A stretch of 20,488 bases of DNA from Clostridiales bacterium (GTDB taxonomy: Bacteria > Bacillota > Clostridia > Saccharofermentanales > Saccharofermentanaceae), in NCBI GenBank assembly GCA_017612755.1, contig JAGAFH010000118.1, forward strand, positions 1-20,488, written 5' to 3'. Each line of letters opens with the position of its first letter. The first letter of the stretch is position 1. This document shows, piece by piece, positions 7,644 to 10,017 of this stretch. Made by a program: the position numbers and the translations under genes. Under the pieces are notes generated by a model. The model did not search any database. It saw only the letters and a list, made by a program, of their open reading frames with translations, and was not told the origin of the DNA.

Positions 7644-8861
7644 ATGGAAAATCAAGAGAAGGAAAAAAAGAATAAGAATACGGCCGTAACGGTAGTGACA
7701 GTATTTCTGGTGCTCTGTATCCTGTTTTCGGCGGTGCAGACATTGTATATCTTTGCCCTGACTACCGGCAGGATCGGAAACATGAGCTATACCCCCGGGA
7801 TCGAGATCCCGGAAAAGACAGAAGACGGTAGCGATATGGAGAATGTTAATGCCGTAAGTCCCTATGCGGATCCATGCTTCTCACTTGAAGAGGCGGCCAG
7901 CGTTACTGACCCTGACAAGCAGACTTTGAGCACCATGGAGATCGCATCCAGCGTAGGTCCTGCCACCGTATCGGTCTTTATCATCGGAAACAGCAGTTAT
8001 ACCGGACAGCAGGGAGCCATTTCCGCAGGTTCCGGCTTCATTATCTCCGCTGACGGATATGTAGTAACAAATGCCCATGTGGTAGATGCGGTAGAGGAAG
8101 ATGATACCAAGTCCATAAAGATCATGGTCCCGGGTTACGACGACCTGATCGATGCCAAGATAGTCGGAACTGACGAGCAGACAGACATTGCAGTTATCAA
8201 GCTGATGGAAGGTGAAGATTATCCTTGTGTCACACTGGGAGATTCTGATGTCCTCCAGGTTGGAGAACTGGCAGTAGTCATCGGAAATCCTCTGGGAACC
8301 CTGGACGGAACTGTTACAGTCGGCGTCGTTTCTGCTCTTGAAAGAAGGATGAACAATAACGGCTATACCATGAAGCTGATCCAGACTGATGCTTCCATCA
8401 ATGAAGGAAACAGTGGCGGCCCCCTGATCAATTCCTTCGGCGAGGTAGTAGGCGTAACAAATGCAAAGATGAATTCGGCTGAAGGTCTGGGATTTGCTAT
8501 CCCCATCTCTGATGTCAAATCGGTAATAGAGTCCCTGATCAATTACGGATATGTGGCAAACCGTCCTTATCTGGGCATCACCGTCAACTATGTAACCTCA
8601 AACGCATATTACGGCGCCGTTCAGGGAGTGTACGTGGCAGAGCTTGCTCCGGGAGGTCCCGGAGATCAGGCAGGAGTCAGAGTCGGTGACCGGATCATTT
8701 CCTTTGACGGGGTTGAAATTGAGCAGTCAAGTGATATCATAGACATACGCGACTCGCATTCAGTGGGGGATGAAGTCCCCTTAGTCGTTGAAAGAGACGG
8801 CAGGAATGTAGAATTGACACTTACGATAGGAGACAGCAGTATCTCATATGAAGATGACTAA
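7644..8861 (+). CDS. htrA: HtrA/DegP-type membrane-anchored serine protease with one PDZ domain
   Basis: 405 residues. A lysine-rich cytoplasmic stub (1-13) is followed by a single membrane segment (about 14-38), a variable acidic linker, a trypsin-like domain and a C-terminal PDZ domain (about 308-400, with YLGITV and AGVRVGDRIISFDG). The catalytic triad is intact: His145 in VTNAHVV, Asp181 in TDIAVIKL and Ser257 in GNSGGPL. This matches the HtrA-like proteases of Firmicutes, which degrade misfolded proteins outside the membrane and are often induced by envelope stress. The frame opens at GTG 7635, but ATG 7644 is preferred: AGAGGTGA (7631-7638) sits at the proper distance. The gene follows yigZ after 56 bp without a clear promoter and is overlapped at its 3' end by a small membrane ORF. 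Confidence 0.95.
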   Translation: MENQEKEKKNKNTAVTVVTVFLVLCILFSAVQTLYIFALTTGRIGNMSYTPGIEIPEKTEDGSDMENVNAVSPYADPCFSLEEAASVTDPDKQTLSTMEIASSVGPATVSVFIIGNSSYTGQQGAISAGSGFIISADGYVVTNAHVVDAVEEDDTKSIKIMVPGYDDLIDAKIVGTDEQTDIAVIKLMEGEDYPCVTLGDSDVLQVGELAVVIGNPLGTLDGTVTVGVVSALERRMNNNGYTMKLIQTDASINEGNSGGPLINSFGEVVGVTNAKMNSAEGLGFAIPISDVKSVIESLINYGYVANRPYLGITVNYVTSNAYYGAVQGVYVAELAPGGPGDQAGVRVGDRIISFDGVEIEQSSDIIDIRDSHSVGDEVPLVVERDGRNVELTLTIGDSSISYEDD

Positions 8862-8958
8862 GAATTCATTTGTAACCAAACTCATTGCTACGATCCTTGT
8901 AGGCGCGATGTTGATCACTTTTATCTCGATCATTATCCTCATCGTAGCCGGTATCTGA
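8848..8958 (+). CDS. Small single-span membrane peptide overlapping the htrA stop
   Basis: A 36-codon frame starting ATG AAG ATG ACT AAG, in a different frame from htrA and overlapping its last 14 bases. The peptide has a short basic start (MKMTKNS), a helix beginning VTKLIA, then an almost unbroken hydrophobic stretch (about residues 13-35) rich in Ile, Leu and Val, ending IVAGI. It looks like a small membrane protein with its N-terminus in the cytoplasm. An alternative start is the second ATG at 8854. A weak AGGAG (8828-8832) lies 15 bases upstream; translational coupling to the htrA stop (8859-8861) is more likely. The stop at 8956-8958 is 16 bases before the terminator, so the frame fills the space between htrA and the end of the transcript. 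I recognise no family. A regulator or partner of HtrA is possible but is inference from position only. Confidence 0.55.
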   Translation: MKMTKNSFVTKLIATILVGAMLITFISIIILIVAGI

Positions 8959-8974
8959 TATTTATTAAGCTGAT

Positions 8975-9004
8975 AAAAAGACCTGCCCGGCGGCAGGTCT
9001 TTTT
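8975..9004 (+). terminator. Strong intrinsic terminator of the Nudix-yigZ-htrA operon
   Basis: An eight-bp stem, GACCTGCC (8980-8987) and GGCAGGTC (8992-8999), with a four-base loop CGGC. Five A precede it (8975-8979) and five T follow (9000-9004), so the stem can extend to 13 bp. It is 16 bp beyond the small membrane ORF. Confidence 0.93.
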
Positions 9005-9208
9005 CTGTGCCCGGAAAATGCCATAAATCGTGTCATCATATGGCACTTCCATAGGCAATAATCCAATAAATGCCATAGCTTCTGCCAGGCTATGGCATTT
9101 TCGCAGGCAATATCCAACAGATTGCCATAACTAATGCCATGTTATGGCATTCTTAATGGCATATTTTAGGGTATTGCCATAAGTTGTGCCATGTTATGGC
9201 ATCAACAG
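9001..9208. repeat. Four tandem 52-bp units carrying TGCCATA/TATGGCA half-sites
   Basis: TGCCATA occurs at 9019, 9071, 9123 and 9175, and TATGGCA at 9039, 9091, 9143 and 9195: each series has a spacing of exactly 52 bp. Between them a third, TGCCAT-like site occurs at 9031 (TGTCAT), 9083 (TGCCAG), 9135 and 9187, giving a 15-bp palindrome-like core TGCCAT-N3-ATGGCA in every unit. A further GGCA begins units two to four (9054, 9106, 9158). Units three and four share 27 of 30 bases between TTGCCATAA and TTATGGCAT, flanking bases included; the parts outside the half-sites have diverged. Unit two can form a 12-bp stem (9068-9079 with 9089-9100). The first unit begins in the T run of the preceding terminator. 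No coding frame was found here. Together with the 10-bp repeat and the small ORF it fills the 442-bp gap after htrA. Confidence 0.93.
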
Positions 9209-9226
9209 AATGATTTTCGACACGAT

Positions 9227-9250
9227 TTGTAACGGATTGTAACGGATTGT
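9227..9250 (+). repeat. Short tandem repeat of TTGTAACGGA
   Basis: TTGTAACGGA is present at 9227-9236 and 9237-9246, followed by a partial third TTGT (9247-9250). The 10-bp period is about one helical turn. It lies between the 52-bp array and the ribosome binding site of the nuclease-like gene, so it may be part of its promoter region, though no clear -35/-10 pair could be assigned. Confidence 0.75.
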
Positions 9251-9303: not shown

Positions 9304-10017
9304 ATGATCCCATACAAATATCATGCAGCAAAAATATCCTGGCTGAAGAATGAACTTGATAAGCTTCCCAAGATCTATATCGGGAAAGATGTAGTTAATG
9401 TAATAACACCTGATGGAAAGAGAGTGAGGTATAAACACAATTCAAAGAATGCTATTAAGATCGAGCCGGTCATTGTCAAAAGGAAGAAGCTGGAGGATGA
9501 ATATAATGAACTGATGTCGCTGTGGAAGCAGATCTACAGATCACCTCCGCCTGTATATACGATGCCGGTTCCATGCAATACAAAACTGGATTACGGGTTC
9601 TTTGAGAAGGCAGCTCCGGGGATGAATACATTTCCCATGACCAACTGTACAGAATATAAAGGCATTAAGTTCAGGTCGAAAAATGAACAGATCGCAGCAT
9701 ATGTACTGGATCAGATGGGATTGCCTTATAAATATGAGACAGCTGTGATCACTAAAGAGAATGAGATCATATGCCCGGATTTTCTGATAGGAGTAGTGGA
9801 GATCAACAGATGCTTCTACTACGAAGTCTGTGGAAGGACTGAAGACAGTCAGTATCTGGACAGAAAGCTTAATGACAAAAAGAAACTTATCAGGGACGGG
9901 TACAGGATGGGAAGAGATGTCCATTTCATCTATGCGCCGGATTCCCATTCATTTGATATCGGGCAGATGAGGCATCAGATACTGAGCGCTATCGAAGGTC
10001 TGATCCCGGAGCAATAA
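9304..10017 (+). CDS. PD-(D/E)XK nuclease-like hypothetical protein
   Basis: 237 residues. The N-terminal part (1-110) is basic with a helical KKLEDEYNELMSLWKQIY segment (61-78) and is not recognised. The C-terminal half resembles a PD-(D/E)XK-fold family seen in gut Firmicutes: FRSKNEQIAAYVL (123-135) with Glu128, a PYKYE strand (141-145), then ICPDF (156-160) with Asp159, and FYYEVCG (171-177) with Glu174, followed by a Lys-rich helix (187-197) and a DVHFIYA strand. The Lys of the ExK motif is absent: the position carries Cys176, and Lys188 or a nearby Lys could substitute. Nuclease activity is inference. ATG 9304 has AGGAGGTGAT (9291-9300); the TTG at 9247 would add an unlikely 19 residues. 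Codons are more AT-rich than in the neighbours (ATA, AAA, AGA, AAT frequent), suggesting an accessory gene. Repeats stand upstream, and a convergent foldase gene downstream. Confidence 0.7.
   Translation: MIPYKYHAAKISWLKNELDKLPKIYIGKDVVNVITPDGKRVRYKHNSKNAIKIEPVIVKRKKLEDEYNELMSLWKQIYRSPPPVYTMPVPCNTKLDYGFFEKAAPGMNTFPMTNCTEYKGIKFRSKNEQIAAYVLDQMGLPYKYETAVITKENEIICPDFLIGVVEINRCFYYEVCGRTEDSQYLDRKLNDKKKLIRDGYRMGRDVHFIYAPDSHSFDIGQMRHQILSAIEGLIPEQ

Follow-up and report, generated by a model that had tools for sequence, protein, structure and literature searches.

Arrays of fixed 12-bp step and changing word in Saccharofermentans-like genomes suggest a dispersed repeat with a matching nuclease-fold protein

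What kind of element are the four 52-bp palindromic units that lie between an htrA-like gene and a gene at 9304-10017 in a 20,488-nucleotide stretch of a Clostridiales bacterium (Saccharofermentanaceae; assembly GCA_017612755.1, contig JAGAFH010000118.1, here called the window)? A preliminary description had read them as conserved protein-binding half-sites, as in iterons, partition sites or multi-operator arrays, with a structured RNA as the alternative. We find arrays of the same geometry and other sequence in relatives, some of them beside a nuclease-like gene, suggesting a dispersed repeat of a kind not yet described, together with a protein that matches it.

The window array and its copies in the same genome

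The half-sites TGCCATA (9019, 9071, 9123 and 9175) and TATGGCA (9039, 9091, 9143 and 9195) recur every 52 bp, all eight exactly where they had first been placed. The TGCCAT-N3-ATGGCA core attributed to every unit is exact in two of the four, the other two having one mismatch. Each 52-bp unit holds more than this core, namely TGCCAT-N6-TGCCAT-N3-ATGGCA-N6-ATGGCA, in which two direct words at a 12-bp step face two inverted words at a 12-bp step, giving four copies of a 6-7 bp word per unit. Against this 24-base four-word form unit 3 has no mismatch and units 1 and 2 have three each. Tandem Repeats Finder reports only 2.2 copies for the array. The units, with no strand assigned, are as follows.

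9019..9070, array unit 1: TGCCAT at 9019, TGTCAT at 9031, ATGGCA at 9040 and a degenerate TAGGCA at 9052
9071..9122, array unit 2: TGCCAT at 9071, TGCCAG at 9083, ATGGCA at 9092 and a degenerate CAGGCA at 9104
9123..9174, array unit 3: four perfect words, spanning 9123-9161
9175..9213, array unit 4: three words, at 9175, 9187 and 9196, with loss of the fourth

The window's own genome (G000; 1.83 Mb in 240 contigs, 70% complete) contains seven matches to TGCCATA-N10..16-TATGGCA, all with a 13-base spacer, and none to the reversed control pattern. Two further TGCCAT arrays, of three units each and also of 52-bp period, lie on contigs C19 and C127, each following the terminator of an unrelated gene. 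Over these ten units the word columns are 86% pairwise identical and the other columns 39% (88% and 38% in the window units alone), bearing out the earlier remark that conserved words stand in diverged spacers. Other words occur in the same genome, TGTCC in an array of 53-bp period on contig C6 and TTTGCG at a locus on contig C8. The presence of arrays of the TGCCAT word in three unrelated intergenic regions, and of several word families per genome, argues against an iteron, a partition site or a single operator array; a Pfam scan of the seven window proteins around the array revealed no protein of replication or partition in cis. A gene for an Mrr-type restriction endonuclease (PF04471; L093:5715-6152) converges on the C127 array, and in genomes G033 and G009 a frame similar to this Mrr-side gene is found downstream, without an array.

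A fixed step and a changing word

The 24-base TGCCAT pattern, allowing up to three mismatches, was found in one of 99 genomes, the window's own. The exact 18-base pattern gave 20 stretches in a species-genome collection, of which one is by eye an intergenic array (L045, Saccharofermentans sp. from horse faeces) and several others are coding or apparently chance matches; viral contigs gave none. A looser pattern, fixing only the TGCC/GGCA spacing with one mismatch, was matched in six of 85 genus genomes against four for the reversed control. The matches in G000, G033 and G109 are multiple and tandem, seven to eight per genome, the single matches in G058 and G031 sit in tandem arrays, and that in G021 looks like chance.

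Saccharofermentans-like genus-mates carry arrays of other words (TTGCCC, TTG[AC]GG[GC], TTCATAA, TGTACTGC and more) in which the 12-bp step is kept. TTGAGG units number 37 in G058, 14 in G031 and one to four in five more of the 85 genomes, with none for the control; TTCATAA units number 22 in G109, the other 84 genomes giving one match with two mismatches, equal to the reversed control. A word-agnostic scan for dyads in 20 loci and the window found 61 at step 12, including overlapping dyads of one array and many loci picked by step-12 patterns, against none to two at each other step from 7 to 22 and one in shuffles. Unselected DNA gave a weaker pattern that nevertheless persisted: with a detector free of any step, 218 intergenic gaps of 40 loci (784 kb) yielded 15 palindromic arrays in tandem, against zero after shuffling of the gaps; the step is 12 bp in nine of the 15 and 21 bp in three. 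In 246 kb from 20 genomes of other families of the order there were four step-12 matches, apparently coding chance matches, and 50 kb of E. coli K-12 gave no match at any step from 8 to 19. Some dyads in G109 (L288, L290) combine a 12-bp step on one side with a 21-bp step on the other.

The periods of the units are likewise ordered. Autocorrelation of 32 arrays shows them to be lineage-specific: 52-53 bp in G000 and G033, 62 in G016, 62-64 in G031, G058 and G041, and 70-72 and 83-85 in G109 and G023. Different words within one genome mostly have a common period, G109 being an exception, with its TAGAACT arrays at 51 bp. The periods group near whole helical turns, about five, six, seven or eight turns of B-DNA, so that the helical phasing first pointed out for the window units now extends to many arrays. 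In a phase test over repeats of 6-20 bp coherence was highest at about 10.0-10.5 bp (R 0.73 over 20 genome-word pairs; R 0.80 at 10.5 bp on ten lineage means), with p values that are a guide only because the genome-word pairs are non-independent and four arrays (L118, L127, L126a and L281) were left out.

Such phasing also fits an unlikely competing explanation: that the words are half-sites of ordinary host DNA-binding proteins, paralogues of differing specificity and one assembly geometry, with a role in limiting transcription or in organising the DNA between genes. The nuclease-like gene would then be a chance or passenger neighbour. Periods common to different words of one genome fit this host role, as do the duplex behaviour of the words described below and the lack of the gene beside most arrays. 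Position is less favourable to it. Among 56 array clusters, 25 lie between co-directional, ten between convergent and seven between divergent genes, six are in open frames and eight are unplaced, so that 42 of the 48 placed clusters are intergenic and 35 of these 42 lie between co-directional or convergent genes; a simple scan found no clear promoter overlapping the window array. All gaps in the cluster-bearing loci divide into 133 co-directional, 28 convergent and 43 divergent, and comparison of the orientations therefore shows no strong 3'-end preference. The host role is also at odds with the enrichment of one gene family directly beside arrays and with differences in array presence at the same site between close species, to which we now turn.

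Turnover at orthologous sites

In the sister species G033, whose HtrA is 88% identical, an array of TTGCCC with a 53-bp period directly follows the htrA terminator, at the position of the window array; the contig ends inside this array, placing the next gene beyond view. Behind the gene for diaminopimelate dehydrogenase (ddh) the word is TTGCCR in G109, TTGCCC in G033 and GTACAG in G023, and G000 has no array (22 of 30 fetched loci examined, two of these without a readable end). The dehydrogenase of G023 is 99% identical to that of G109, yet the array word differs. Behind the gene for phosphoribosyl pyrophosphate (PRPP) synthetase an array is present in G000 and absent from G033 and G009. The 100-residue neighbour of the C19 array had no match in seven genomes, hence there is no orthologous comparison for that array. 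From the htrA, ddh and PRPP-synthetase comparisons it follows that arrays are gained and lost and words exchanged. Conservation in homologous intergenic regions, which the preliminary description had made its test, was thus found in part: at the htrA site the sister species does carry an array, though of a different word, and behind its PRPP-synthetase gene there is none.

Presence and absence between close species could also be expected of selection-free relics, short palindromes duplicated in tandem, spread by recombination and now decaying, and such an origin agrees with the decay of fourth words and with the near-identity of units within certain arrays (in G033, self-match of 85% and 89% at 53 bp). 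The excess of word over spacer identity across ten units at three loci, and a 12-bp step common to unrelated words, speak against it, and we regard relics as quite unlikely.

Probable half-sites in duplex DNA

A palindromic unit might act as a folded strand or as paired half-sites in duplex DNA, and the two are distinguished by how words vary across the dyad. In the ten units of G000, 22 pair positions deviate from the word and none of the 22 is compensated across the dyad. In 44 units of the TTGAGG family direct partners agree with each other at the variable word positions (z +2.7 and +2.1) but dyad partners do not (z -1.5 and -0.9), and the spacer between the outer partners disagrees more than expected (z -3.9). 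Uncompensated departures of this kind favour words that act as half-sites in double-stranded DNA over a structured RNA, so that the preliminary description is supported in taking them for half-sites and its stem-loop alternative is disfavoured; Rfam gave no match at gathering score in the window.

We accordingly consider it improbable that the units serve as hairpins in RNA or single-stranded DNA, be it as structured RNAs or as REPINs (doublets of repetitive extragenic palindromes, REPs) served by a REP-associated tyrosine transposase (RAYT). As RNA the window units do fold better than shuffles (z -3.1, -3.0, -2.5 and -1.3), as expected of any palindrome, and a few units look compensated, among them G016, where TGCCAAA/TTTGGCA stands next to GGACAAA/TTTGTCC, and G109, in its outer and inner words. 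RAYT-like genes are present in G000, G033 and G109. Flanks read in nine genomes did not support a link: GGGGAC-type repeats, not array words, border the RAYT-like genes in G000 and in G033. Matches to PF01797 occur in 21 of 85 genomes and in none of the array-bearing G031, G058, G023 and G016, of which G031 is 100% complete. By eye, GTAG is absent from the ten own-genome units and no CGTC tag stands beside their words.

The RAYT-like Y1 transposase genes themselves, L256:9362-10117 (G000, contig C137) and L257 (G033, contig C129), have GGGGACGTATCTC and GGGGACGGTTCTG respectively in their flanks and apparently belong to a separate REP system. In G109 (contig C17) two tandem copies of another Y1 transposase gene, L109:1574-1969 and 2107-2736, the first shorter, lie amid repeats with GGTGTCAGGTCAACATGGCGG.

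A gene of predicted nuclease fold beside arrays

If the words are bound by a protein, a candidate is encoded next to the window array, its ATG lying 102 bp beyond the end of the final recognisable word at 9201.

9304..10017, + strand, gene for a 237-residue candidate cognate protein with a C-terminal PD-(D/E)XK-like domain and a less conserved N-terminal half (from homologues and a structure model)

The structure model has the sheet and helix order of the PD-(D/E)XK fold and several nucleases of this superfamily are among the best matches listed, which supports a PD-(D/E)XK-like fold for the modelled product, nuclease activity being predicted. E128, D159 and E174 are invariant in 15 sequences of the family, and a PDB sequence search gave no match. 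The preliminary description had proposed looking for arrays next to PD-(D/E)XK genes, and this was borne out in two other genomes: homologues directly adjoin arrays in two further species, with a different word in each, TTCATAA in G109 and TTGAGG in G058, making three gene-plus-array loci with three words. Family members account for three of 77 array-adjacent open reading frames against none of 329 others (p 0.007), so that the family stands beside arrays more often than expected, on small numbers.

Hundreds of homologue clusters of the family occur in gut Clostridia, and Butyrivibrio sp. AE2032 is one named source. For the L239 protein, plasmids and phages gave no homologue, nor did viral contigs hold a relative; an alignment search in viral contigs gave one distant protein, without an array. 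With the L296 protein and a C-terminal piece of L293 as queries one stand-alone homologue (L296) was found, plus larger AAA/helicase-type proteins.

Other candidate binders were rejected. PF13749 is present in four of eight array genomes and absent from G000, G033, G109 and G023, and among nine loci surrounding its matches a step-12 dyad is present in L184 alone, where it lies outside the gene. AAA_4/AlbA_2 proteins had come into view through L035 and L044, loci matched by the TGCCAT pattern, which proved to be coding DNA of winged helix-turn-helix (wHTH) ATPase-like genes with four-residue (12-nucleotide) repeats.

Flanking features of the window array

Two further features border the array, both read from the sequence.

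8980..9004, + strand, terminator-like hairpin GACCTGCC-CGGC-GGCAGGTC followed by TTTTT, belonging to the upstream gene
9227..9250, + strand, two TTGTAACGGA direct repeats and one TTGTCG word, between the array and the gene at 9304-10017

The hairpin was missed by a simple scan of the window; its T run ends 14 bp before the array. Ahead of this terminator lies an open reading frame of 36 codons for a hydrophobic peptide (8848-8958), which shares sequence with the end of the htrA-like gene; a similar frame follows HtrA in G033 (L052) and G009 (L053). A separate operator of the family genes may be represented by the TTGTAACGGA repeats ahead of the window gene and by five TTGTCGG repeats upstream of the interrupted family gene of G109 (L293).

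A model of the arrays

We favour, at a probability of roughly 45%, REP-like dispersed extragenic elements with a cognate protein of nuclease-type fold. Each unit would present two direct 6-8 bp words at a fixed 12-bp step opposite an inverted copy of that pair. These putative half-sites would be read in double-stranded DNA, protomers on successive units occupying one face of the helix. The likeliest reader would be the 237-residue product of 9304-10017, whose faster-diverging N-terminal half may choose the word, the C-terminal half having the nuclease-type fold. The locus would resemble a REPtron, with one site that joins gene and array and with further arrays of its word, lacking the gene, at other places in the genome; words would turn over between species, presumably along with the protein. 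The geometry, the dispersal, the turnover of words at an orthologous site, the absence of compensation across the dyad, the presence of the gene family beside arrays in three species and, in a structure model, the fold are observed; binding of the words by this product, cutting of DNA, and spread or upkeep of the arrays by these means are inferred.

Several observations weigh against this model, as do the few units, described above, that look compensated. Most arrays have no adjoining family gene, and the two homologues encountered in unselected DNA give weak support for a gene-array link. Plain step scans of the unselected loci, in two sets, gave nine matches at step 12 in either set; one set had a further 16 at step 9 plus 13 at step 18, the other four at step 9 plus six at step 15. 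There are also arrays without the 12-bp step: the tandem palindromic arrays L118:10005 (62-bp period) and L127:15839 (52-bp period), hairpins beside L293, and that of G053 behind ddh.

A stronger version is possible though rather doubtful. According to it each member of a family akin to Vsr and homing endonucleases recognises a 6-8 bp word particular to it, in direct pairs at a 12-bp step, and seeds and keeps helically phased arrays of that word genome-wide. Its N-terminal half would co-evolve with the word, which could so change from one species to the next, and the whole would be a previously undescribed duplex-DNA counterpart of REPtrons. A search of titles and abstracts, with subscription journals mostly outside its coverage, gave no description of these arrays or of this family beside repeats. 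If the model is true it would be a second solution, with a nuclease fold, duplex half-sites and fixed 12-bp and helical-turn spacing, and such intragenomic repeat populations would have had more than one origin. Sister species whose arrays differ in word at one and the same chromosomal position would also provide a natural series for studying a DNA-binding protein that changes its word while the assembly geometry stays constant.

Comparison with known systems

Arrays of iterons, partition sites and multiple operators share repeated, helically phased half-sites with those described here, which differ in having several words per genome, many unrelated loci and no clear promoter. A resemblance in sequence is seen in two AlbA_2/AAA_4-type wHTH genes of termite-gut Propionibacteriaceae (L035:4474-5880 and L044:2165-3241), whose 12-nucleotide palindromic repeats have TGCCAT-type words, the 12-bp step and the dyad; they differ from the arrays in being coding DNA within the gene, encoding four-residue repeats.

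The C-terminal half of the 9304-10017 product has a predicted fold like that of Vsr, the EDxHD homing endonucleases (I-Bth0305I) and TnsA, from which it is set apart by its different, less conserved N-terminal half as well as by the empty PDB search. To our knowledge dispersed word arrays are not part of any of these systems.

The nearest parallel is with REPs, bacterial interspersed mosaic elements (BIMEs) and REPINs and their RAYT (TnpAREP), together forming the REPtron. In the accounts given in PMC8266576, PMC3733652 and PMC3116915 these systems rely on HUH enzymes and folded single strands; like the present arrays they are dispersed extragenic palindromes, often tandem, with several families per genome. 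Most copies of a REPtron lie far from its one gene, and a comparable arrangement is suggested here, with the cognate gene immediately beside some copies. The differences are equally clear. REPs usually number in the hundreds, far more than the copies found here, and the present arrays have four half-sites at a fixed 12-bp step, no GTAG or CGTC tag in the ten own-genome units, no selected stem and no linked RAYT, the linked protein having a PD-(D/E)XK-like rather than an HUH fold.
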